Assembly (NCBI GenBank): GCA_015183035.1
Contig: JACZZP010000003.1
Coordinates: 496,001 to 560,000, forward strand
Direction of reading: 5' to 3'
Source: Meloidogyne chitwoodi
Lineage: Eukaryota > Nematoda > Chromadorea > Rhabditida > Meloidogynidae
DNA: 64,000 nt
The notes beneath the pieces are model-generated. The model was given only the letters and a program-made list of their open reading frames with translations, was not told the DNA's origin and did not search any database. Of the stretch, positions 15,614-53,722 are shown in pieces (the first letter of the stretch is position 1; every line of letters starts with the position of its first letter). Both the position numbers and the translations under genes were made by a program.

Positions 15614-15782
15614 ACCTCAAACATTTTCACAATTTGTTAAAAAAAAAGAAAAAAATAGTTAAATCAAATTTTTAAATATTATAAGGTTGTTGCGAGAATT
15701 TCTCTTCGAAATATTCCCTTCAAGCAGAAAATTCCTCCCCAAATAATTATTAAAGTAATTAAAAAAATTAAAAAATTGTATT

Positions 15783-18700
15783 ATGATTTTATTAAGTCAA
15801 AGGTCTTTTATTACGCGCGAGGCAGCGGAAAAATTAAAACTGGATACATTAGGAAATGAGGAGTATTACCTCACCAGTTTTGGCAATAATATGCCTAAAA
15901 AATATCAATGTGATTTAGTAAAACTCGGAATGTGGGCTGAGGGAAAAAAGATGACAATGGTTCTAAATAAATTGGATTTCATAGTAAATCCATTACCGTA
16001 TTACGACGTTGAGGAAATGTATAAAAATTATGAAAAAATTTATGCAGAAAAATTGGCAGTCACTACTTGGAGCCAGCCGGATATATTATTGGGTATGGAC
16101 ATCTGGCATGAGCTGCATGTTCGAAAAATGCAGGCCCTGCCTAGTGGGTTTATTGTATGCCAGTCCAGGCTAGGACTAATTATGAGTGGTTGGGGTCAAA
16201 TTGAGGATGAGTCTCAACAATTAGTTACTGGGATTTATAAGGCTCAAAGCGCTCAAATTTATTCAGTAATTCAATTTACTGAAGATAAGAGGCAAAAAAC
16301 TAAGAAAGCGACTGATTTAGAAAATCAAGAAAATTTAATAAATTTCTTTGGTCTAAATGGAGTAGGAATGGAGGATTTAACTCCCCCTACAAAAGATCAA
16401 GAAGTAATGGATAATTTTAGGAAAAATCTTCTTTTCCTTGAAGGTCGCTATCAAATAGCGTTACCTTTTAATGAGAACATAAAATATTTACCCACTAACT
16501 TTCATCATGCAAAGGTAAGGTTGGCTACAACCATTCGGAAATTGCAAAAATTAAAGTTAGTAGGGGAATATCAAAAAATTATAAATGAACAACTTGAGAA
16601 AGGCATGATAGAGCTGGTTGAGAACCCCACGGAATCTCAAGGGCCAGTTCATTATCTACCTCATAGAGCAGTTGTTCGCACTGATAAGGCTTTCACTAAG
16701 GTGCGTATAGTTATGGACGCTAGTGCTAAGCCTCCGGGTCAACCTGCTTTACCCTCTCTCAATAATTGTCTATATACTGGACCTATTTTACTAAAGCAAT
16801 TGGTCGGAATTCTTTTACGTTTCCGATTTTTGGACAAGGTTCTATTGGCCGATATAGAGAAGGCCTTTTTGCAGCTCGGAGTCCGAGAAAGTGACCGAGA
16901 CTGTACACGTTTTTTATGGGTGAAGGACCCTGAGGAGCTGAATCCTGACCAGATTATTTATCAAAAATGTTTGGTCTTTCGATTCTGTAGGGTTAGTTTT
17001 GGTCTTACAGTATCCCCATTTTTACTGAATGCGGCTATTCAGGAGCATTTAAAGCTCTTTGATTCCCCAATTGCCAGGAGCATTGAGGAGAATCTTTATA
17101 TGGACAATATTTTAATTGAAGTAAAAAAGGAGTATAATATAAAGGAAATTTATAAAGAAGTTAAGGAGATCTTTAAATCTGCTGGGATGAGGCTGAGAGA
17201 ATTTTTCGGTGCCTCTAAGGCAGAATTCAGGGATATTCCGAAAGAAGATTTGGCTCCAAATGTGGAGGAGACAAAAATTTTCGGAATAAAATGGAATTTA
17301 GAGCAAGAAATAATGACAATTGAATTCCCAAAAATTGAAAAATTTGCTACAAAAAGGGAAATTTTGTCGGCAATTGCGAAAGTTTACGACCCCTTAGGCC
17401 TAGTGTCACCCGCATTAATACCCGCCAAATTATTAATGCAAAAAATAGTCGAAGGAAATTATAAATGGGATGAGAAAATTGAGGAGGAATATTATCAAAA
17501 ATTAATAAGTATCCTCAATACTTGGCAAGAAGAGGGAGATCAGATAAAAATAAGATTCCCTCGAAAGCTAGTTTTTACTAAAATGGAGCCTAGAGAATAC
17601 CACTGCTTTACGGATGCTAGTGGTACAGGATTTGGTTGTGCTGTTTATGTACGAGCTGAAATTCAAAAAGCTCATCTGATTTTTGCAAAGAGCTTAATAA
17701 AACCTGCGCGCCTGCCACTTACAGAGGCAACGATACCGAGGCTCGAACTTCAAGCTCTTGCTTTGGGAGTTAAAGTTTTAAATTTTTTACAAGCTGAGTT
17801 ACAATTTGATAAAACTCAAGGGGTAATTTGGTCTGACAGCCAATGCAACATTGAGCGCTTGAATCATTATGAGAAATATGATCGATTTACGGCTAATCGA
17901 GTCGTAAAGATTCGAGGCCAATATTTAGTTAAGCATGTTATCAGTGAGGAAAATCCCGCGGATCTCTGTTCAAGGGGGATTACCCCCAAGGCATTACAGA
18001 ATAATAAATTTTGGTGGCACGGTCCCACATGGCTCTCACAGAGCAAGGAAAAATGGGTCCGGCCTAAATTTGAATATATTCCGGGTACAGAAAAAATTAA
18101 AAATGAAGAAATAATTGAGGCAATAATTGAGCAAAAGCCTATAAATCGCTCCATAGTTGATGAAACAAGATTTTCAAATTATTGGCGCTTGATTCGAGCT
18201 TTAGCTTATGCCTTCCGTTCCTTGCGGAAAATCGGGAGCAAAATAATTTGGAAGGGTCTGATGAAGTCAGAATTATTAAAAAATACAAGTGAAAACTTAT
18301 CAGTGGAAGAATTAAAATTTTCTAGGGATTATTTGATTCGAATTGTTCAAGCTAAATTCCCACCTGATAAGGAAAGAATACGAGAATTAAATATGATAAA
18401 AATTCAGAATATTTGGGTATGTCAAGGAAGGATAAGAGAAGCAGATCTTCCAGATGAGGCTATAATGCCCATTTATTTGCCAAAGCAAGCTTGGCTTACT
18501 AAATTAATTATACTTAATATTCACAAGGAAAATAATCATTGTGGAACAGAAATATTATTAGGAATAATTAGAATGAAATTTTGGATTCCCCAAGGAAGAA
18601 AATTAATAAGAGAAGTGTTAAAATCAGCCAAATTTGGTTGTCTGATTTGTAGAAAATTTAGTCTCCTTCCTTATGATGGTAAAAAATTCGATCTTTTTCC

Positions 18701-21700
18701 AAAAGAGCGAATTAACATTACACGACCCTTTAAGAGTGTGGGCATCGACTATTTCGGCCCTTTGGTCGTAAAAATTCAAAATAAGCCCGAAAAGGTGTAT
18801 GGAGCGCTTTTTACTTGTATGGTTGTTCGCGCCATCCATGTTGAAATGGCTTATGATTTATCAGGGAATTCCTTTTTGCAAGCCTACAGAAAATTCATAG
18901 CTCGCAGAGGAGTCCCAGATATAATTTTCTCGGATAATGCTACTAATTTTCAATTTGGGGCAAAAATTGTTAAAAAATTAAGTGAACAAACCTATTTTAC
19001 GCAGGAAGTACAACAATGGGTTGCTCACCGAGGTACAAAGTGGAAATTTACCACCCCACGGAATCCCCGTGAGGGTGGGGTTTGGGAAAGGATGATAGGG
19101 GTAGTCAAAAATGCCATGAAAAGATGTATTGGCAAAAAATTGATAGACCATTCTGAACTTCAGGCTCTCTTTAGTGAGCTAGAAGCAATGGTCAATATTC
19201 GACCTCTGACCTTTCTTTCTGGTGCCGAACCCTTAAGGAAAATTCGCCCAATTGATTTTTTAATTCCTTATTCGCCTACAGAGGTAAATTTTGCTAACTT
19301 AGGCGATGATTCCGATTACGAGGAGGAGCTAAGCAGAGAGCAAGGACTCAAAAATTTAAAAGAAATTAATAAAAAATTAAATAAATTATGGGAAATATGG
19401 AGAACCCAATATCTCCTCTCCCTTAGGGAGAAAGGTGAAAAATTGAGTAAAAATACTGGCAAGGACCCCCAAGTCGGAGAAGTGGTGATCATCGCAGATG
19501 ATTTACCCAGACCTCTTTGGCGACTTGGTAGAATAATAGAATTAATTAAGGGTCGAGATAAAATGATTAGAACCGTTAAAATAATTATTATGGGAAAAAT
19601 TTTCAAGAGGAGCATAACTCAAATATATCCCCTTGAAATTTCAGATAATCAACAACAACAACCACGTCAAAAACAGCGACAACCAGGCGACATAAATCTA
19701 GAAATGGAAGATTATTCCTCAGAAGAAGAAATTTCTCCATTTCCAGGCCGAGCTACCAAAAAATTGGCTCCGACTCAAATTTCTGCTCCTCCTTTACCTA
19801 CACCAGAAATTATTATGCTAGCAACGGTTGAGTCATCTCGTCCTCCTATACCTGTTGTGCAAGATCTTCGAGATGAACGAGCATTATCTAAATTTGGAAG
19901 GAGGAAAGAAGGGGAAATTGAAATTCGACGCCGAAAGGAACCCGTACGACCTATTATGAGGGGAATACGTGATAAAAAAGAAGATGAAGCTTTAAAAAAT
20001 AAAAAGAAACTTGAAGAAAGTTTAGAGAAAGATTTACACGACCCTAATATTATGGTCGAATTTAACAACGGAAGAAGAACCAGTTATAGGCGCCTCGCTT
20101 CAAAGGATTTAGAAAAATATAAAATTCCTAGAAGACAAAAACAGAAATACGGACGAGGTCGATTTACATTCGGAAGAGCTGGAATAAATGCCATAATGAA
20201 ACATCAGGGAGCCGGCAAATGCGACGAGAAAGATAGAATACGTTTGCAACAAGCTTCGATTTTAGAGGCTAAAGAAGAAAAATTTCGGAAAAAGGGTGAA
20301 AAAGCCTTCTCAAAATTTCAAAGGAATTTCGAACTTCAGCAACACAATAAGGCCTATGAAAATGAAGAATGGTATAAAATAAAAGAAAAGAAGATAGTGG
20401 CAAATAGAAGAGCAAGATGGGAGATCAGGCAAGAAGCTCAACAAAAACCTGAAATGTGGCCTCCAGAAGAAATAAATAAGGTTGAAGAAATGCCTTATAG
20501 TATTCTAACACCTTGTGCTGAACCTCTTCACGCCAACTGTAGACAAACAAAGATGGCTAGCAGCACTGCGAAGGCAAGAAAATTGGCCTATCCCGTCAAC
20601 TATCCAGTTATGACGACTTTAGCTCATTTATTAGTGTTCAACTGGTTTAGTCGACAAAACTTTCCGGCTGAAATGGGCATGGCTCTTAGAGATAATTTAA
20701 TTGGTGCCGAGAATGCCACTTGGCTAATCTTCAAATTTTGGCAACATATTAAAACATCACCCTTGAAGGCTTTTCGAAATAAATTTATCGGAGATGTCAT
20801 TTGGATCAGAAGGATGAACTGCGTAATCTTTAATCAGATCTGCAAACAATCGGATTCAATACATATCAAACTTCAAAATCCTCCGCAAACTCCAATTGCA
20901 GATCTAAATGAGTGGCTTCAGTTCATCACCAATGCTTTTTCTAAGCTTATGACAAGGAGGAATATTGACTTTTGGAAAACAGATAGAAAAATGGTTCTGA
21001 TAGATTCGCCCCTTATCGTCGCTGCGGATCCTTCAATTCAATCAGTGGTTGGATGGACAAAAAATCCTGAAGATTGCAAGCTCATCTACTTTGATGGCGC
21101 TACTGATTTACATCATATCATCTATTTCGGAATAAAGGCCGAAAATCTGATGATCGTCGTACAACCAGACGAGATAGTAATGGCATCAATAACTCGATCC
21201 TTAGAAAAATGGCGCGAGTACAGTGTGCCTATCAAAATCACTTTGGTTCATAAAGAAAGTAAAGATGGAGCTGAACGAAGGAATTATCAAGAACAATTTC
21301 ACCAGCTTTCTGAATCCTTTGGGACAGGATACTTATACTATGACGGCCAATTAAAAAATTTAAAATTGGTTCGAAGAAAATTTTTGAATAATGAAAATGA
21401 TTCTTCGGAAGAGGACGAACCTGGACCCATGGCTAAGGCAGTGGCTTATGTTGAACAACCGGTCCTACCTCAAGAGCAACAACAAAATGAAGAAACTTTG
21501 CCTTCAATAACTCAAATGCGTCCGCCCTTAGAACAACGCCTAAAAGAACTTCTTAACCGAATTTCTGGTCAAAATAATGAAGAATTGGCAGGTCCCAGTA
21601 CGTCAACACAAACTCCTCGAAAATCACGTGGTTCTTTATTTAAAAATTTATGCTCCTTGGCACTTATTTGCCTATTTCTACTCCTAATAATAACAACAGG

Positions 21701-23720
21701 AACCAGTGGTCAAATTGTGACTACATCAAAAGTGAGTACGCCTACTGGTTACAAGCGAGTCTATAAGGTACGTGCTTCCCCAAATTTAATAAAAATGTTT
21801 AATGAGCAAAAATATGGGATAGACCAGGAAAGGTTTAGGAGAAGAAATATGGACGAAATCAGTGGAGGCGCGCCGGTATATTGGTGCGCCACCCAATCGT
21901 CAGCCTTGTGGAAATTTCCAACCAAGGAAAATGCCACTTTTTGTAATAAAGGGGGCTTCCAAAAGTGGAAACACTTTGATTTTGAAACTTATTCCCAGGT
22001 AACCCGACCCCAACCAGTCGAAGCATTTATTTGCTCCGCGAAATTCACCAAAGAAGTGTATTATGTTAATTTTTTAGGGGATAAATTCGTTACTCTGGAG
22101 CAACAGTTACTTCCTCTCTCTAAGGAAGACTGTTTAAAAATGAAAGAGACCAAAATATGCCCTTTAAATAAAAAGGAAATGGATAAAAAAGATGGTCTCT
22201 GGAAAACCTCGGAAATCCTCCAAGTAGACTTTCCGGGGCGATTTTCCTCGTTTTTTGGAGGAGCAAGGGAATCCTCCGTGATTAACTGCCACCTACAGCC
22301 TACCACCCTCCATTATAATCCCCAATTAATGAAAATGTTTTCCCCTCTTTATGAGGTGGAAAAATGTCATTATATGACTGACTTTTGTCAGCTCCCAGAT
22401 AATTCGAGTATTATTTGGGAGTCTCATTGTGAATCAAAAAATTGCAAAAGTTGCAATTATGAATATTTAGGGAGGTGGGAAGGAGATTATAGCATGTCCG
22501 GGGAACGGATCATGTGGATCTCTACCTCTAAGGAAATTGCTCTATCCTTTATATATAACGGTCCTCGAGAGATCGCTTGTAATGGCAGAGCAGTCAGAAA
22601 GTCGGAGCAAGGATTTGCTATCGACGAAAAGGAATTAATTATGATGTTCGCCCATAGACCCAAGCGTTCAGTAGATGAGGAGCAATTAGCGGCGGAGCTC
22701 ACCGCTACTGAAATTGCCGTAAAAGAGTTTTATGATAAGATTATGGACGAGAAATGCCGTCAACAGACAGTTCGGCATGATAATCCTACCTATCATGTCC
22801 GGCAGGCATTCCATAAACAGAATCTCGTAGCCACTTGGCTCAACGAGGATACTGCTGAAGTATTCTCTTGCTTTGACGTTGAATTAAGAAACGTCAGATT
22901 TCGCCCGGAGCCAAGATGTTATAAATATATTCCAGTCCAAGTTCTCTTACATAATCAAACTCGAATGGGATTTTTGGATCCAGAACTGCGTATCCTAGGT
23001 GAAACGTCACCCCTAGCAGATTGTGAGAGATATCGATTACGATATTTTGATGTCTCCCCGGGACTTTGGATCCGAGTTAATACCCAAACTGGACTTTGGG
23101 AAAGAGTGGAACAGGCTAAGATTCATATTTATCATGATAATCTTACGGCTCACGACATGAGTACCACTCCAATCGTATTTCATGAGTGGATTTTGAAAAA
23201 TAATACCGAAGACCCCTTATTCGTTCATGTGAGCGAGTTGTCTCAATATGAGACATGGAAAACTAATGTTAAATCGGAAGAGTCCGAAAGAGCATTAGTT
23301 TTGGGAGCTCTCCCAGGTGGGCTTGAGGGAGTAGCTAAAGCTTGGATTTGGAGTAAATGGCAATTATTAGTGGACTGGTGGATGACCCTAAGTTGTCTTT
23401 TCTCCACCTTTCTATTTTTAAGGGACATTGGTATCCCTTTGCTCACTGTATACTTGATTTACCCTGTGTGGTCGAGTATCAGAGCCTTTATGGGAGGAGC
23501 CTCCAGACGAAGACCCTCAGAAAACGCTTCGAGTCGAGTTACTACTCGACGGAGCCAAGCCTCGCAGGATGATATTGAGTTATCATCTGTTGTTCCGCGT
23601 AGGCAGAGGACAAATTACTTTTCCTCCAGAAGAGGCTCGAATGAGACTCTGAAAACCCTTGATACTCGTGTGTCGAGTAAATTCCTTTCTCCTTCATCGA
23701 GAGGAAGGAGTAAGACATAA
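15783..23720 (+). CDS. BEL/Pao LTR retrotransposon polyprotein with Env-like end (5'-truncated)
   Basis: A single 2645-codon frame. In order: the C-terminal part of a retroviral-type aspartic protease ([14 protein letters not shown], but no catalytic Asp motif before it); reverse transcriptase (about 300-450; [28 protein letters not shown], active site YMDN); RNase H (about 605-690; [10 protein letters not shown]); integrase with HHCC finger (about 913-955) and DDE residues in [15 protein letters not shown] and GGVWER; a Lys/Glu-rich linker; a hydrophobic segment near 1958; a Cys-rich ectodomain-like region with a basic RPKRS site near 2290; and a C-terminal membrane segment near 2540-2575. 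The domain order with an Env-like extension is known from some nematode BEL elements. Gag and the protease core are missing between the LTR-like sequence and the first Met, so this copy is not autonomous, although the remaining frame has no stop. Confidence 0.88.
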
Positions 23721-24640: not shown

Positions 24641-25183
24641 ATGCAATATTTACCAGCAGAAATACAACTTAAAATTTTCAAAAATCTCAACTTTGATGAA
24701 TTATTTCAAATTAAACAAATTAACAAATACTTTAATGAATTTATTAAAAAATATGAAAAGGAATTGGCTAAACAATCGTTTCATTCATGCCATTTCACCG
24801 GAAGTCCAATATTTTACAATGAAAAAATTGTTGAAGTCAATTTTCCTTTAAATAATCATCTTCAAAAGAAGTGGTATTTGGCTTTAAATGCGAAAAAACA
24901 AATCTTTGAAGGATCAATTAGTCCGGCAATAGTATTATGTAAACATAAGAACTGCTGGAAGGATACTGTAATCATTAATTTACCTTTAAAACCAAAAAAC
25001 CTGAGGGAATTAACAATTGTTCATCATTTGTTAGTAAAACTTTTCAAGAGTAAATTCGAGATGATTGAGTGCAATAATTTTGTGTTCAACCATCAATTTA
25101 TTAAGTTACTTTTTGACAATGAAGAAATTGACAATTTAAAAAGAAATTTTCAAACATTAGATTTAATGGTGAAAGAAGAATGA
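24641..25183 (+). CDS. F-box protein
   Basis: A 180-aa ORF whose first 35 residues form an F-box (LPAEIQLKIFKNLNFDEL then a Phe/Asn-rich second half), the SKP1-binding module of SCF ubiquitin ligases. The remainder has no recognised substrate domain but resembles the short divergent F-box proteins expanded in nematodes. The ATG directly follows a TTTTTTTTATAG acceptor. It sits between the BEL/Pao element and FAD copy 2, which is unusual for a stable host gene; capture by, or insertion near, the element are both possible. Confidence 0.7.
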   Translation: MQYLPAEIQLKIFKNLNFDELFQIKQINKYFNEFIKKYEKELAKQSFHSCHFTGSPIFYNEKIVEVNFPLNNHLQKKWYLALNAKKQIFEGSISPAIVLCKHKNCWKDTVIINLPLKPKNLRELTIVHHLLVKLFKSKFEMIECNNFVFNHQFIKLLFDNEEIDNLKRNFQTLDLMVKEE

Positions 25184-45830: not shown

Positions 45831-48390
45831 TTACTCTTCAAAATGTTTAATAGAATTATTAGATAACATCATTGTAGCATTTGTAGTAGTCATATCAGAG
45901 TGATTACTTCCTGCTATTGTCACAAATGAGGGGGCTGTTGAAGTTAATTGTTCTTTTATTGTTTTTGGTGCTGTTGTAATTCCACTGCTATCAGCACCAA
46001 CATCGTCTAGTATAAATTCTGAGAGAAGTGAGTCAACTTCTGCGAGTCCAAAAAACCTTTTTTTTTAAATTAAAAAAATTAAAAAGAATATTTGAGGATG
46101 ACTTTGCCTTGAAAATTCGGTACTTACGTATTATCCCTAAGCACTTTTGCGGACTTTTTTTTTGCGGACAAATTTATATATAAATAGACAATTTGAATAA
46201 TAAAATCTTTTTTAATTTTTTAGTCTATTTTTTATTTATAATGAAAAAATAAATTTGTCCGCAAAAAAAAGTCCGCAAAAGTGTTTAGGGATAATAGTAA
46301 GTACCGAAAATTCTTCTTAAATTTGAATAAAAAAAGAAATTTGTGCCTAGAAATTCTTTTAAAATGTCAGAAAATTCCCTTCATTTAAATAATTAAAATA
46401 AAATTGTAAATTTTATTTTAATTTACAATTTTATTGGAAAATATCTATGGATATTCTCCCGTATCTCCTAAAATATTCTAAAAAATATCCCCAAAAATTA
46501 AATTAAAAAAATACTTTGTTAAAGTCATATTCTCAATTAACAATTGAGTCAATGCTTTTAAAGCAGGTGCTAATAATAAAATATTTCCATAGCGAGTTGG
46601 CGCCTCATCTGGTGGTTTCGAAGTCAAAATAATTGAATAAAGAGCTTTTTAATTAATTAAAAAATATTTAAAATTATTTTTTTAAAAAAACCTTTAAGTA
46701 TTTTATTTCTAGTTTCACGTATTATCTGTTGTGCATGTTTTGATAATCCTCTAGCTTCTGGATGTAAGAATGCTAATGCTTTTAGACAAACGAATTCTTC
46801 TTCTTTCATCTTAAAAATTAAAGAAATTTAAAAATGTCCGCAGTTATACAAAATGTCCGCAAGTTAAAAAACTGTCCGCAAGTCTTAAAAAATGTCCGCA
46901 CGACTTTAAAAATGTCCGCAAGACTTTAAAAATGTCCGCAAATCTTTAAAAATGCTACAAGTCTTTAAAAATTTCCGCAATTTTTAAATTATTTAAAAAA
47001 AACCTCCAATTGTCTCATTGGCCAAACAATTTCATCCAAAACTCTAGGCATTATATTCGCCGCTTTAAATGCCGCAAAAGAACCCAATGGTTCATTCCCT
47101 GTTTGTGTTTGTTGGTCAGATCCTAACAAAGAATTATTGAATAAACAAAGCCTTGTAGTGTCTGGAGAGCGAAAAGCGGGCATTAAAATAAGATGTTGGG
47201 GCGCATAATTTTTTAATAAAATAACCTGAATTTTTTTTAATTAAAAAAAAATAAAATATAAACTTTGTCTTCCATTCGAAGTTCTGAAAATGTTTGCATT
47301 CCTTTTGCCCATTCGACCATTAAAAGAAGTGTAGTACGTGAAATTTCATTCAAATCCTTAAAAATAAATTTCATTTTGTTAAATAAAGGAGACTATAAAT
47401 AATAAAAAATTGAGATAAATAGAATATAATGTCCTACAACTAATTTTTAAATTAAATATATTTTAAACGTTTCCAAAAAAATTAAAAAAAACCTCAATAG
47501 AAGCAGGTCTAGAACCTGATGGAGAGCTAAATGCTGAAGGCCCTCCATTGGGAAGAAAAACTTGTGAGACAGATGGACCACTGCTACTGCTTTCAGCATC
47601 AAAATGGGGACCAGAAAAAGCACTCGCAAGGTTTCGATAACGTAAACTCATTTCTTGATTTACGCGGGCCTGAAAATAATAAAGATTGAAAATTTCAATT
47701 TAAAAAAACCTCCAATTCCATCAACAAATAAATAATATGTGAATAATTAGCAGAATTTTCAGAACCTAAATTTCCAATTCCTGAAGATATAGAATAAATG
47801 GAAGGTTTGCTTTCAACTCCAGGAGACAAAGATTGCTCACTACCGCCACAGTCCATAGTTTGCCGACGTTTTCTTGGACTACTAGGAGAGCTAAGTGAAT
47901 CACGTTCAAATTGTATAGCTTCTCGTTTCATTCCAGCACTGATTTTAAAAAGAAAAATAAATGACAAAATAATTGTCTTAAATCCCCCAAAATAAATAGT
48001 AGAAATTAAAAAAAATTTTTTATGTCAGTTTGACCTTTTGAACTCTCAAAATAAAAGAAATATCAAAATTAAATAAAAAAAACCTCAAACATTTTTGAAA
48101 ACGACAATAACGACAAGCACAACGAAAGTTTTTGTCAATTGTACAATTTTTGTTAAAACGACAATTAAATTTTTGATTTCGTAAAATTGTTCGGCGAAAA
48201 AATCCCTTGGAAAAAAATTACTTTTTAAAAATTAAAAAAAACTTTGCATCCGTTACACGAAATTGTTCCATAATGAGTACCTGTGGATTTATCGCCACAA
48301 ACTTGGCAAGGTTCACTTAATGGATCTTTAATAATTAGTAAATTATAATTAAATTTTAAAAAAAATCATACCATTAATGACGAATTCCAT
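45831..48390 (-). CDS. HNF4-like nuclear hormone receptor A
   Basis: Ten exons: 48372-48390, 48243-48325, 48084-48205, 47710-47938, 47494-47669, 47264-47356, 47004-47225, 46692-46809, 46515-46644, 45831-46056. The joined frame is about 472 aa. The DNA-binding domain starts almost at the N-terminus ([14 protein letters not shown]) with P-box [10 protein letters not shown] and the second finger [20 protein letters not shown] Ser/Pro-rich hinge leads to a ligand-binding domain with [29 protein letters not shown], the nuclear-receptor signature. It acts as a ligand-modulated transcription factor of the large NR2A-derived nematode group. The Asn in the P-box (HNF4 has Asp) may alter half-site choice. 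Intron 9 hosts a MITE and intron 7 a tandem repeat. Confidence 0.93.
46119..46305. mobile_element. GGTAC-ended MITE, copy 3
   Basis: 187 bp, ends GGTACTTACGTATTATCCCT / GGTACTTACTATTATCCCTA. Flanked by GAAAATTC at 46111-46118 and 46306-46313. In intron 9 of the nuclear receptor and very similar to copy 1 internally. Confidence 0.88.
46833..46980. repeat. Tandem TGTCCGCAAGTCTTTAAAAA repeat in intron
   Basis: About seven imperfect copies of a 20-23-bp unit containing ATGTCCGCAAG. TCCGCAA is also the arm of the GGTAC MITEs, so the repeat may have grown from a MITE fragment. Confidence 0.75.
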
Positions 48391-49019
48391 TCTCTTTTAA
48401 ATATCTATTGAATTTTAGACAATCGTTCAATATTTTTTAATGAAGTGTTAGTTGATTATTTTATCATTTTTGATGTTAGATGTTTTAAAGTATTTTGCTT
48501 AGTTGACATTATGAAGCTTAAAAGTTTGTTTTAATACATTTCGTCGAACAAAGATGCACGACATTTCGCTTTAACGGCAAAAAAACTACATTTCGTTTAC
48601 CCGAGCCCATGATTTTTTGGAGGTGTATCATTTGAGCGACACCGTTTGAGCGACCGTTGTAAAGGTCTCATTTGGGCGACGAATTTTAACAATCTTCATC
48701 GCTCAAATGGCTGTCGCTCAAAATCACTCGCTCAAATCCTATCGCTCAAACGGCCTCGCTCAAATGAGTCTCTCCCTGATTTTTTGCTGTTAGGACAAAA
48801 TGTCGTGTAATTTCTTTCGACGAAATGTCTGAACATGGTAAAAAAGCCTTTTTCTCTGGCACTATAAAAGTATTTTTATTTTTTTGTCTTGCATTTCATA
48901 TTTTTCGTAAATGAAGATGTTGATTCTGGCGTTTTATCTTTTTTACTCTTTTCATTTTTTTAAACTTTTCAGTAGTCTGATAAATTCATAAATTCTTCAT
49001 TTACAAAGTTGTTGTTGTA
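48391..49019. other. Intergenic with nested MITEs upstream of the TDP-43-NTD-like array
   Basis: Between the receptor start (minus) and gene 1 of the array (plus). 48470-48535 resembles 54068-54120 at the far side of the array (TTGACATTATGAAG block). A CGACATTTCG element (48537-48840) is interrupted by the 159-bp MITE at 48620-48778. A TTTTCAG acceptor lies at about 48972, 50 bp before the first ATG. Confidence 0.6.
48620..48778. mobile_element. CAGGG-type MITE nested in another repeat
   Basis: The right end reads inward as CAGGGAGAGACTCATTTGAG and the left end as GAGGTGTATCATTTGAGCGA. Flanked by ATTTTTTG at 48612-48619 and 48779-48786. The interior is a series of CGCTCAAA motifs. It splits a CGACATTTCG-type element whose uninterrupted relatives are at 41790 and 61287. 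Related to 54129-54329. Confidence 0.8.
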
Positions 49020-49506
49020 ATGAGTTCGAGTGAAACAAGCCAATCTGTTCGTACTGAAGGTGACATTCAAGACAAGGTTTTTAATTAGAGTTTTATTTGA
49101 CTTATAATAAAAAATTAAATTTCCAGTTCATCCGTGTTTACGATCCTGTGGACCTTGATAAAGTTGAGATTCTTCTTGCGAAAGATGGAACTATGCCATT
49201 ATCTTTTCTTGAGCGTAGATTTCCTGGTGCCATTTGTTTGGAGTATAAAAATCCAAAAACTGAGTGCAATCGCGCTGTTATGTGCGTGTATTTAGGTTAA
49301 TATTAAATATGTTTTAAGCAATTACAGGTTTGATGAGGAGAAGAAGGCTTTTTTGGCACCCTCGGATGGATGGGGTGATAAACTATTTACTATCATTTAT
49401 AAAGGTTTTTTATAAGAATAAATTATGTATATGATTTTTTAATAAAAATCTTAATTTTAATATTTCAGACCGACGTCAACCTAGAGGGCGTATGGTTTGC
49501 TATTAG
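49020..49506 (+). CDS. TDP-43 N-terminal-domain-like protein, array gene 1
   Basis: Exons 49020-49076, 49127-49281, 49328-49404, 49469-49506; 108 aa. After a polar leader (MSSSETSQSVRTEGDIQDK) comes one domain of about 80 residues: FIRVYDP...VEILLAKDGTMPLSFLERRFPGAICLEYKNP...RAVM...APSDGWGDKLFTIIY. It reproduces the order and spacing of the TDP-43 N-terminal domain (DGT, FPGA, L-Y-NP, R-V, the A-P-x-x-GWG turn, a hydrophobic-Y strand), known to adopt a ubiquitin/DIX-like fold and to self-associate head to tail. No RRM, NLS or Gly-rich tail follows; the protein ends after a short basic RQPRGRM tail. A role in forming or capping TDP-43-like oligomers is inference. A TTTTCAG acceptor about 50 bp upstream could take a spliced leader. 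Confidence 0.82.
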
Positions 49507-50197
49507 CTAAATAAGGGGTATATTTTTACTTTGTATTTCTAAAAAATATGTAAATAAAATATTCACTTTTATGAATAGTATAAGATGTGTTGAGGATAGA
49601 AATGGCTAATTTAAGAAGGTGAGCTAACAAATAATGGGGTTTGTAAAAGCCGTTTTCCTATCTTTAGCAAAAAACAAAGAAATAATAATTAAATTATTAA
49701 ATTAAAATAATAAAAATTCTTTATAATTAAGAACGACAGATGGCATTGAATATTAGATGGAATATAGGATAAAATAATTTATTTTAAAATATTGGTTTGA
49801 TCTCTTTTTATTTATTTATTTGTTTTATTGTAAATGTTTAACTTTATTTTTAATTAATTATATCGGATATCAAATAATGTTTCAGAAATATATTTTTTAT
49901 AATTCTATTTCCATTATCTGAACGAAACAAAAATTGCTGAACAACTTTACGAATAACAATAGATTCTTAAAACACTGAAGGAAAAAATAGAACAGAGCAA
50001 ACCAAAAGAAAAAGGAATTGGCAATATATTTTAATTTAAATCTTTTTTCTATTAAAATTAGATAAATTTAAAAATTTTATTTCTTTTTTAATGTCATTGT
50101 TTAAAAACATTATCTTATTGTTAATTTTACTTTTTGCTCTTAATTTTTAAACTTTTCAGTATTCTCTGATAAATTCTTCATATACAAAGTTGCTCAA

Positions 50198-50683
50198 ATG
50201 TGTGGTTGTAAAACAAGTCAAACTGTTCGTAAAGAAGATGACGTTCAAGACCAGGGTAACATTCAACAGCAGGTTTTTAATTAAATTTGTATCTGAGTTA
50301 TATTCAAAAATTTAATTTATCAGTTCGTTCTTGTTCGTGATACTTTCCATCATGACAAAATTGAAATTCCTCTTTCCAAAGATGGGACCTTGCCATTATC
50401 TTCTCTTGATCATTCATTTCCTGGTGCTCATGGTTTAAAATACGAATATCCAAAAAATGACTGCCATCGCGCTGTTGAGTGAGTGTAATAAAGTTAATTT
50501 CAAATAAAAGTTTAAATTATTTACAGGTTTGATGAGAAAAAGCAAGCTTTTTTGGAGCCTTCGGATGGATGGGATGATAAGAGATTTATGATCATTTATA
50601 AAGGTTTTTTTAAATTTAATATTATTAAATTTTAAATTATTTTAGTACGACCTGTAATTGGACCGCCGGTTGCTTACCTTTAA
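50198..50683 (+). CDS. TDP-43 N-terminal-domain-like protein, array gene 2
   Basis: Exons 50198-50272, 50324-50478, 50527-50603, 50646-50683; 114 aa. Leader MCGCKTSQTVRKED... differs from gene 1 by CGC in place of SSS. The domain keeps KDGTLPLSSLDHSFPGAHGLKYEYP, RAVE, and PSDGWDDKRFMIIY; the GWG turn has become GWD, and the NP of the LxYxNP motif is YP. Hence the most altered at the turn. Same exon phases as gene 1. The tail is RPVIGPPVAYL. No other domain. Confidence 0.8.
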
Positions 50684-51099
50684 CTAAATAAAGAGTATAT
50701 TTTTAATTTTTATTTATTTTCTAAAAAATAAATAAAAATATTCCTTTTTATGAATAGGGTAAAACGGGGTAATTTTAAAAGTTAAAATTATTCTTTATAA
50801 TTCAGAAAGACAGATGGCATTGAATATTAGATGGAATAATTTTAGGATATTGCTTGATCTCTTTTTCTTTATTATTTTGTTTTTATTGTAAATGTTTGCT
50901 TGCCTTTAATTTTAATTATTTCGGGTGTCAAATATTGTTTCCGAGTTATATTTTTGTCGGATTAAATTTTAATTTATTTTTTTATTGAATTGTTTAATTT
51001 AATAATCATTTTATTATTAATTTTACCTTTTTTTATCTTCATTTTTTTAAACTTTTCAGTAATCTTATCGATTTGTAAATTATTTACAAAGTTGCTCAA

Positions 51100-51702
51100 A
51101 TGTGTGGTTGTAAAACAAGTCAAACTGTTCGTAAAGAAGAGGACATTCAAGACCAGGATAACATTCAAGAACAGGTTTTTAATTAAATTTTTATCGGAGT
51201 TGTTACTTATAAATCCAATTTCATATATCCTTGTTCGTGATCCTATGAACGATCCGCAATTTGTTGAATCAAAGTCTATTGAGATTCTTCTTGCCAAGGA
51301 TGGGACTATGCCAATAACTAAACTGGATCGTAGATTTCCTGGTGCACATTGTTTAGAATATACAAATCCAGAAACTGGTCGCAAACGCGCTGTTGAGTAT
51401 GTTTATTGAACTTAATATTAAATATATCCTTTCACCATTTACAGGTTTGATGAGAAAAAGAAGGCTTTTTTGGCACCATCAGATGGATGGGGTGATAAGA
51501 TATTTACTGTTCTTTATAAAGGTTATTTTTAAATTAAATTATATAATTTTTTATGAAAATTGAGATTTTAATTTTCGTTTTAAAATAAAGTTTTTAAAAA
51601 ATACAAATCTGGTTTTATACTAACTTTGAGATAATTAAATTTTAAAATTATATTACTTATTTAGAACGACGTGAACGTCCAAAGCCTGTTACTTACTACT
51701 AA
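51100..51702 (+). CDS. TDP-43 N-terminal-domain-like protein, array gene 3 (altered splice acceptor)
   Basis: Exon 1 51100-51174; later exons end at 51396, then 51445-51521 and 51665-51702. Leader MCGCKTSQTVRKEE. Domain motifs KDGTMPITKLDRRFPGAHCLEYTNP, RAVE and APSDGWGDKIFTVLY are intact. The usual CAG before exon 2 is CAT here, so the normal acceptor is lost. The nearest upstream AG (51198-51199) would give an in-frame exon with seven to eight extra residues, but an intron of only 25 nt. Whether that is spliced is unknown; otherwise intron retention would truncate the protein. Tail RRERPKPVTYY. Confidence 0.72.
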
Positions 51703-52218
51703 CTAAATACAGGGTATATTTTTAATTTCTATTGTTTAAAAAAATAAAATATTCTTTTTTATGAATATAAAATTCTTTTAGGGTAAAAAAGGTTGATTTT
51801 AAATGAGGGGCTGAGCGTGTAGAAAACATTTTTTTATCTCTGACAAAAAAAAAATAAATAATATCTAAATTATTAAAATAAAATTATAAAAAATTCTTTA
51901 TAATTCAGAACGACAGATGGCATTGAATATTAGATGGAATATAGGATAAAATGATTTATTTTAAAATATTGGTTTGATCTCTTTATCTTTATTTATTTGT
52001 TTTATTGTAAATTGTTGCCTGTCTTTAATTTTTAATTAAATATCTGATATCAAATAATGTTTCCTAGTTATATTTTTATTTGTCTGATTAAATTTAAATT
52101 ATTTTAATTTATTTTTTTTATTGAATTGTTTAATACATTTAATTATTTTATTATTAATTTTTTAAACCTTTCAGTATTCTGATAAATTTATAAATTCTTC
52201 ATTTACAAATTTGCCTAA

Positions 52219-52771
52219 ATGAGTTCGAGTGAAACAAACCAATCTGTTCGTAAAGAAGGTGACATTCAAGACCAGGTTTTTAATTAATATCTATTTTACA
52301 ATCATTAAATTCAATTAATTAGTTCATTCTTGCTGAAGATATTAAGGGTAAGAAGACTGAGATTCCTATTACCAAAGATGGTACTGTGCCATTATCTTTT
52401 CTTGAACATGCAATTCCTGGTACTTATGGTTTAAAATATACAAATCCAAAAACTGGCTGCGATCGCGCTATTGCGTGAGTTATTGAGGTTACTTTTAAAT
52501 ATATTTTGAGCAATTACAGTTTTGATGAGGAAAAGAAGGCTTTTTTGACACCTTCGGATGGATGGGGTGATAAGAAATTTACTGTTATTTATAAAGGTTT
52601 TTTTAAATTAAATTATATGATTTTTTATGAAAATTGAGATTTTAATTTTCGTTTTAAAATAAAGTTTTTAATAAGTTCGAAATAATTAAATTTTAAAATT
52701 ATATTACTTTAGAAGTACGTGAACGTCCAATGCCTTGTTATCCAGGAGCAGGGGCTTCTGCCTATCTTTGA
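52219..52771 (+). CDS. TDP-43 N-terminal-domain-like protein, array gene 4
   Basis: Exons 52219-52275, 52323-52474, 52520-52596, 52713-52771; 114 aa. Leader MSSSETNQSVRKEGDIQDQ, like gene 1. The domain is more diverged in the first strand (FILAEDIKGKKTEIPITKDG) and has IPGT for FPGA, but keeps LKYTNP and TPSDGWGDKKFTVIY. The last exon is longer than in genes 1-3, with a Pro/Gly/Ala tail. Phases are the same as in the other copies. Confidence 0.8.
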
Positions 52772-53140
52772 TAAATCAATGTATATTTATTTTTACTTTT
52801 ATTCTTTAAAAAACAAATAAAATAATAATTAAATTATTAAACTAAAATTAATTAAAAAATTCTTTTTAATTCAGAACGACAGTTGGCATTGAATATTAGA
52901 TGGAATAGGATATAATAATTTATTTTAAAATATTGTTTGATCTCTTTATTTATTTATAATTTTGTTTTATTGTAAATTTTTGCCTTCCTTTAATTTTTAA
53001 TTATATATCGAATAATTTTTTACTTTTTAATCGAATTGTTTAACAATACATTTGATTATTTTTATTTTCTTTACACTTTTCGTTTCTTAAACTTTTCAGT
53101 ATTCTTTTCTGATAAATTCTTCATTTAAAAAGTTGCTTAA

Positions 53141-53722
53141 ATGTGTGGTTGTGAAACAAGCCGTTTTGTTCGTGGTGATATTCAAGACAAGGTTTTTATT
53201 TAAATATTTATTGATTAATAATTTAAAAATTCAATTTTTAGTTTATTCTTGTTCCCGATCCTTCCACCAGTCTCAAATTGCCAATTGAGATTCCTCTTGC
53301 AAAAGATGGGACTGTGCCTTTATCTTTTCTTGAGCGTAGATTTCCTGGTGCAATGTGTTTAGAATATACAAATTCAAAAACTGGTCGCAAACGTGCTGTT
53401 ATGTACGTATATTTAAGTAATTTTAATTTTTGAATTATTTAAAGGTTTGATGAGGAAAGGAAAGCTTTTTTGGCACCATCAGATGGATGGGGTGATAAAA
53501 TATATGAGATCATTTATAAAGGTTTTTTAAGATTATTAAATTATACGAGTTTTATTTTATGAAAACAGAAATTTTTATAAAAAATTTTAACTCGAATTAC
53601 TAATATTTGTTGATAAAATAAAATTTTAATATTACATTATTTTAGCATGTCATCATTCTTATGAGGACTTCACTCTGATGGCATGGTATTTTTTTAATTT
53701 TTATTGCTTAAAAAATAAATAA
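53141..53722 (+). CDS. TDP-43 N-terminal-domain-like protein, array gene 5
   Basis: Exons 53141-53191, 53242-53402, 53445-53521, 53646-53722; 121 aa. Leader MCGCETSRFVRGDIQDK. Domain FILVPDP...IPLAKDGTVPLSFLERRFPGAMCLEYTN, RAVM, APSDGWGDKIYEIIY. The last exon is read in the same phase but has an unrelated sequence (ACHHSYEDFTLMAWYFFN...), replacing the short basic tails of genes 1-3, and runs into the AT-rich 3' flank. This may be frame decay of the tail. Confidence 0.78.

Follow-up and report, generated by a model that had tools for sequence, protein, structure and literature searches.

The stretch of Meloidogyne chitwoodi DNA analysed here, 64,000 nucleotides of contig JACZZP010000003.1 (the window), contains five tandem genes that each encode a single copy of the N-terminal domain (NTD) of TDP-43, which aggregates in amyotrophic lateral sclerosis, and they are part of a larger family in which the same domain also occurs in one gene with a domain bearing the motifs of a trypsin-like protease. 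We propose, at a probability of roughly 0.4 and partly by analogy, that these genes belong to a nematode family based on the TDP-43 NTD, in which NTD–protease fusions are accompanied by NTD-only members that may cap or co-assemble with their filaments. To our knowledge, work on this NTD has dealt almost exclusively with the domain as part of TDP-43; in this genome it seems to have been released from that setting, amplified, and joined to a protease-like domain, which would make it a portable assembly device. The presence in one genome of a protease fusion and of small NTD-only relatives suggests a home-made pair, an assembly-driven enzyme together with a small regulator. The window corresponds to C23:496001-560000 in a 47.5 Mb, 30-contig genome, C23 and the like being contig labels.

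On sequence grounds we regard the identity of the domain as firm. In a Pfam hidden Markov model search, the TDP-43_N family (PF18694; curated cut-off 27.1 bits) scored above cut-off in all five window proteins (62.8–86.1 bits; E 2.7e-17 to 1.5e-24), the matches starting at profile position 1, 1, 10, 5 and 11 in genes 1–5, respectively, and ending at position 73 or 74 of 74; these scores exclude a chance resemblance. A search of the PDB with gene 1 returned eight distinct sequences up to E 1, every one named TDP-43 (best E 1.5e-10), so that the earlier note, which had assigned the domain to TDP-43, is borne out. The only other Pfam family among the window proteins is TGT_C2 in gene 5 (E 0.086, under its cut-off), and none of the five had a DIX family listed up to E 10; the polymers of the DIX domains of Axin and Dishevelled are likened to the TDP-43 NTD polymer in a passage of PMC5491494. 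AlphaFold2 models of two related sequences, an M. enterolobii protein close to the TDP-2 described below and not a window gene (P0001; mean pLDDT, the model's per-residue confidence, 77.9, and 81–92 in ten-residue blocks from 21 to 100) and the gene 5 frame read through its 14-codon intron 2 (pLDDT 79.7), both have the order strand–strand–helix–strand–strand–strand. The domain also stands free, as first described, of the RNA-recognition motifs (RRMs) that follow it in TDP-43: the RRM exons of the two RRM-bearing homologues in this genome gave zero matches below E 1 in the window, and genome-wide RRM searches gave none inside the NTD-only clusters. No protease-domain match was found in the window up to E 0.1.

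All five genes lie on the forward strand, with exon boundaries set from splice signals and conserved reading. Gene 1 (49020..49506; 108 residues; exons 49020-49076, 49127-49281, 49328-49404 and 49469-49506) has its NTD at residues 20–95 and a PF18694 E value of 5.1e-18. It is followed by gene 2 (50198..50683; 114 residues; exons 50198-50272, 50324-50478, 50527-50603 and 50646-50683; E 1.5e-24), gene 3 (51100..51702; 120 residues if splicing follows that of its sister genes; exons 51100-51174, 51224-51396, 51445-51521 and 51665-51702; E 2.7e-17), gene 4 (52219..52771; 114 residues; exons 52219-52275, 52323-52474, 52520-52596 and 52713-52771; E 1.1e-20) and gene 5 (53141..53722; 121 residues; exons 53141-53191, 53242-53402, 53445-53521 and 53646-53722; E 6e-18). 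The original description of five four-exon genes with identical splice phases, each ending shortly after one domain of about 80 residues, agrees with these models in its phases (0, 2 and 1 in all five) and in its layout (a leader of 17–25 residues, a single NTD of 76–83 and a tail of 12–25, the tails being unlike one another); it needs amending for gene 3, which has CA, not AG, at the expected exon-2 acceptor (51222-51223), canonical sites being present throughout in the other four. Gene 3 may therefore be spliced in a different way from its sister genes, and is possibly mis-spliced or a pseudogene.

The motif TTTCAG, a candidate trans-splice acceptor, lies at 48967..48972 (+), 53 bases upstream of the gene 1 ATG, and recurs at 50154, 51054, 52169 and 53094 ahead of genes 2–5; its spacing of 44–53 bases from the ATG in all five is compatible with trans-splicing. 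AATAAA occurs near every stop codon, overlapping the end of the frame in gene 5. The nematode lineage read from the letters alone is confirmed by seven exact genomic occurrences of what we take to be the SL1 spliced-leader sequence, against none of its reversed control.

The five window genes are an undercount of the family. PF18694 has 26 exon-level matches genome-wide, and C23 carries 18 pairs of exons 2 and 3, all of them open; exon 2 is flanked by AG and GT, and exon 3 preceded by AG, in 17 of the 18 pairs, the exception being gene 3. The pairs are distributed over clusters A (three genes, 426–429 kb), B (the window's five, 545–550 kb) and C (five, 564–569 kb) and the single loci D (597 kb), E (607 kb), F2 and F1 (636 and 639 kb) and G, the gene for TDP-2 (1418 kb). 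Clusters A–C and locus D make up the NTD-only set of 14 genes, all on C23. Thirteen of the 14 allow a start and exon 1 to be modelled; in A2 exon 1 is unclear. Searches using gene 1 and G as protein queries each returned 40 exon matches and, among the best-scoring candidates, revealed no extra pair on C23. E, F1 and F2 had been candidates for stand-alone NTD genes and were dropped when a scan for exon 4 exposed protease-like frames downstream. Elsewhere, divergent TDP-43_N domains occur at C29:323 kb (E 4.5e-19), where long coiled-coil-like frames follow on the same strand (by eye), and at C10:1032 kb and C30:776 kb (E 2e-12 and 3e-11); the neighbourhood of the C10 domain has a hydrophobic stretch and a coiled-coil-like frame.

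The second arm of the family consists of genes whose NTD exons are followed by others that specify a domain bearing T-x-x-H, D-F and GDSG motifs; on C23 these are F1, F2 and E, and on contig C8 the NTDs concerned are divergent ones. Genome-wide this domain occurs in six genes: F1, F2, E, H (C23:588 kb) and two on C8. Complete seven-exon models with GT-AG introns throughout were obtained for E (334 residues), F2 (342), F1 (326) and one of the C8 genes, C8b (324), two of the four being on the minus strand and the final acceptor in each of E, F1 and F2 having been read directly from the sequence. Exons 1–3 encode the NTD, exon 4 a short linker, exons 5 and 6 the trypsin-like domain and exon 7 a tail, with basic stretches in the last exon of E (RKRKR) and F2 (KKIRKR) that by eye resemble nuclear signals. 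H has an exon-4-like piece and the protease, with no NTD match upstream, where the sequence looks repetitive by eye, and the second C8 gene has the protease with a partial exon 2 only, adjoining a repeat-like stretch. We consider the case for a fusion architecture, with NTD and protease-like domain in one gene, to be good as read from these gene models.

We call the fused domain trypsin-like on the basis of its motif order and the agreement among copies, and not of a significant family match. The His, Asp and GDSG motifs are invariant and in order in all five protease domains, an arrangement common to Trypsin_2 (PF13365) and other chymotrypsin-fold proteases, and Trypsin_2 matches fall at corresponding places in all five proteins (E 0.00089–0.011). 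Several results weigh against this motif-based assignment: all five Trypsin_2 scores lie under the Pfam cut-off; the F1 and F2 pieces alone gave no trypsin match; the C8 domain searched against the PDB returned ten solved sequences up to E 10, no protease among them; and a profile of the fusions reached alphavirus capsid proteins and one named chymotrypsin-like protease among solved sequences only at E 0.70–0.98, and gave zero matches at E 0.001 among 3194 candidates in a protein collection.

Traces of the fusion layout appear to persist in the NTD-only genes. A likely relic of the exon-4 donor, GTATATTTTT, lies at 49518..49527 (+), just past the gene 1 stop, with like sites at 50695, 51714 and 52781, past the stops of genes 2–4, and at 53686, inside the gene 5 frame. 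The motif or a close form of it stands about 9–16 bases beyond the stop in 6 of the 14 NTD-only genes (genes 1–4, A1 and C5) and within the open frame in gene 5 and in two genes of cluster C (C1 and C2); in A2 the sole occurrence lies far downstream, immediately past the stop. The modelled donor that leads to the protease in E, F1 and F2 is the same type of motif. Exon 4 has the same kind of acceptor in NTD-only genes and fusions, and its peptides are partly alike, with RPKSP in the cluster-C gene C1 and in E, RERP in genes 3 and 4, and RERT in F2 and H. Because stops in 6 of the 14 fall just before an apparent linker-exon donor, the NTD-only genes look like fusions that lost the protease, and the simplest reading is that they probably arose from fusions through early stops and loss of the downstream exons. 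The view that they are simply copies cut from TDP-43 does not survive, given the protease fusions in the family and the apparent relic of the linker exon and its donor that several copies keep.

The relic-donor evidence is suggestive, since short T-rich motifs are not uncommon where DNA is this AT-rich, and other observations count against a loss of the protease: pattern search found no relic donor in A3, C3, C4 or D (C4 has a near form by eye), and a single clade of the 14 NTD-only genes is not rejected (p-AU, the P value of the approximately unbiased test, 0.122), the trees leaving the direction of change unfixed. A single clade of the four fusions is rejected (p-AU 0.015, with long branches), C8b joining TDP-2 on a branch of 1.9.

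The genome also encodes two TDP-43-like proteins with RRMs. For C. elegans, passages of a 2025 review (PMC12820612) give TDP-1 as the sole homologue of TDP-43. In the genome analysed here, TDP-1 (contig C1:129-131 kb, minus strand) has the NTD, a KRRK-containing linker and two RRMs; TDP-2 (C23:1417.9-1420.8 kb) has the NTD, a KRKHE-containing linker, RRM1 (Pfam RRM_1, E 2.8e-14), an RRM2-like stretch matched by the TDP-1 RRM2 query (E 1.7e-9) and a proline/glycine-containing tail. TDP-2 had itself been a candidate stand-alone NTD, a Pfam RRM search of the genome having listed no RRM there, until queries with the TDP-1 RRM exons revealed them. Exons 1–3 of TDP-2 have phases identical to those of the NTD-only genes, as read from the sequence; exon 1 ends in QDQ in TDP-2 and gene 4 and in QDK in genes 1 and 5; and the intron between exons 2 and 3 has the same place and phase 2 in the NTD family and in TDP-1. 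With introns in common with TDP-1 and TDP-2, the family therefore derives from DNA copies of a TDP-43-type gene and not from retrocopies. In the trees, TDP-2 falls together with the C23 family and TDP-1 lies separately (support 99/98, and 92/98 with divergent rows added). A clade of the cluster-C gene C1 with D and F1 (95/93) was not upheld in a later tree and is unused. Contig C1 holds extra pieces of TDP-1 (2884.9 kb; 2898.5-2899.2 kb; 2287.6-2288.2 kb), namely a copy of RRM2 with 82% identity, a pair of inverted NTD fragments whose translations are identical, and stretches resembling RRM1.

We next consider whether these domains might polymerise. As set out in passages of PMC5491494, the tail residues E14, E17 and E21 of one human domain contact the head residues N45, S48, R52 and R55 of the next, E17 pairing with R52 and bonding with S48 and N45; parts of a second report (PMC5830921) state that E17R or S48E disrupts assembly and that E17R does not unfold the human domain. 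The window genes have the domain and motif order of TDP-43 and TDP-1, and the NTD-only set mostly keeps the central contacts: E17 in 13 of 14, R52 in 12, N45 in 11 and, at position 48, where the human protein has Ser, Thr in 11, with the E17–R52 pair complete in 12. As differences from TDP-43 and TDP-1, no RRMs were found after the NTD in the NTD-only genes, E21 and R55 are not kept, and position 22 is Lys in 13 of the 14. Across 24 family rows of this genome, joint loss of the commonest letter ranks pair 48–52 first and 17–52 third of 465 (P 0.0003 and 0.0005). Set against a polymerising role are the E21–R55 pair, found in 0 of 14 NTD-only genes (position 21 is acidic in 1 and position 55 basic in 0, this genome's TDP-1 having His at 55 as well); the absence of both E17 and R52 from E and C8b, two of the four complete fusions; and the co-loss P values themselves, which are uncorrected for 465 pairs, ignore relatedness, come from an alignment uncertain in its most divergent rows, and in neither case pass strict correction. 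Taken together, the columns of the interface show no significant excess of variability over the remaining columns (permutation P 0.10).

In the mechanism that we favour for the fusions and their NTD-only relatives, the NTDs of TDP-1, TDP-2, F1, F2 and most NTD-only proteins would assemble into head-to-tail chains; chain formation would bring the fused domains, presumed to be active proteases, together and concentrate them; and the NTD-only proteins would act in trans, capping or diluting the fusion filaments and possibly TDP-1 and TDP-2 chains too, much as caspase-1 is regulated by CARD-only proteins. A different target, the one that the earlier note had in view, is conceivable, though we hold it rather improbable: the NTD-only proteins might act chiefly on TDP-1 and TDP-2, joining their chains through the R52 head and ending them through a tail short of acidic charge, and so tune splicing or the control of double-stranded RNA. 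Both RRM-bearing partners are present in this genome, the family groups with TDP-2, and 8 of the 14 NTD-only genes have a zero or positive net charge at the tail positions 14, 17, 21 and 22, as opposed to −3 in TDP-1 and TDP-2; yet K22, present in 13 of the 14, together with a neutral residue 21, could equally build a separate, self-only interface. The family amounts to a set of natural variants in which the two faces of the interface are changed separately, and it allows a direct test of whether TDP-43-type chains are capped or seeded by isolated NTDs.

The pattern of selection bears on whether the NTD-only genes have a function at all. Exons 2 and 3 are free of stops and frame breaks in all 17 family copies other than TDP-2, for which the chance without selection is about 10^-18 in a simulation that assumes a star tree and substitutions only and ignores shared ancestry. 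Among the 153 pairs of 18 copies (TDP-2 included), the median ratio of nonsynonymous to synonymous divergence (dN/dS) is 0.77, the two closest pairs giving 0.40 and 0.69, and the nonsynonymous proportion (pN) is not below the synonymous one (pS) in 30. Open frames in all 17 copies together with a high pairwise dN/dS make the family look constrained yet fast-evolving. A rival view, which we think rather unlikely, is that tandem duplication left the NTD-only genes behind as decaying by-products that do little or nothing: the high ratio and the 30 pairs would fit, as would the missing acceptor of gene 3, the unclear exon 1 of A2 and the dissimilar C-terminal tails, while the intact exons, the invariant core residues, and the TTTCAG and AATAAA signals around all five window genes argue the other way.

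Fast evolution and clustering, with E21 and R55 lost, would also suit an NTD put to some other use in which polymerisation is irrelevant, such as a fast-evolving immune, conflict or host-contact role. We think this quite unlikely; E17 and R52 are among the better-kept sites, even though the human domain tolerates E17R without unfolding (in the parts of PMC5830921 cited above), and by eye none of the window proteins has a secretion-type start.

The closest parallel to fusions attended by NTD-only relatives is found among the CARD-only and PYD-only proteins (CARD16, CARD17 and CARD18; POP1-3), each of which likewise has one polymerising domain, with a related multidomain protein encoded in the vicinity. 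Caspase-1 filaments are capped by CARD17 according to a passage of PMC7555848, and CARD-only proteins are described, in passages of PMC7555848 and the abstract of PMC10803020, as relatives with a single domain whose genes neighbour the inflammatory caspase cluster. The fold is different, the protease of the NTD family is trypsin-like, and regulation here is suggested by analogy only. An extended version of our proposal, which we think doubtful as a whole, is that the polymerising domain of TDP-43 has been turned into a signalling module, in which NTD filaments would gather a trypsin-like protease and the large, fast-evolving NTD-only set would tune its threshold, parallel to, and independent of, the CARD–caspase system.

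Stand-alone copies in other nematodes, which the earlier note had thought worth seeking, did not emerge. A protein search with the family alignment found 14 proteins among 148 candidates, the named ones being two from Meloidogyne enterolobii and one each from M. hapla, Caenorhabditis brenneri and Angiostrongylus costaricensis; the single-sequence search with gene 1 had one candidate and no match. Five of the 14 entered the trees (P0001, P0002, P0003, P0005 and P0006), and other analyses used 13 (minus P0013) or 10 (minus P0007, P0008, P0009 and P0013). Those closest to the NTD-only genes (P0001, P0004, P0007 and P0008) were rejected as stand-alone proteins, as they look like pieces of TDP-2 orthologues. 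P0001, which groups with TDP-2 at 96/98, probably represents a full TDP-43-like paralogue whose gene model has been cut short, because its SGEFF end equals an intron read-through in the homologous gene here. In the open-licence papers searched, which do not speak for the whole of the printed record, we found none on stand-alone TDP-43 NTD genes or on NTD–trypsin-like fusions in nematodes.

The surroundings of the five-gene cluster hold several further features. Short internal repeats, GCTCAAA-like or GGTCAAA-like by eye, flank it on both sides (48.6-48.8 kb and 54.1-54.3 kb of the window) and are perhaps the remains of mobile elements, and a minus-strand frame at 48225-48365, directly upstream, encodes a nuclear-receptor zinc finger (zf-C4, E 3.7e-11). 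A 2653-residue open frame at 15759-23720 resembles a retroelement polyprotein by eye, G+C there reaching 37–39%. Two related sets of minus-strand frames, at 10.5-13.3 kb and 26.5-32.8 kb, both contain NTTTFDVAIYGIENP and GPVGLYAAYK stretches, and the two frames tested from them had no Pfam match at 0.01. Finally, a 180-residue frame at 24641-25183 begins with an F-box (PF00646, E 1.1e-4, above cut-off).

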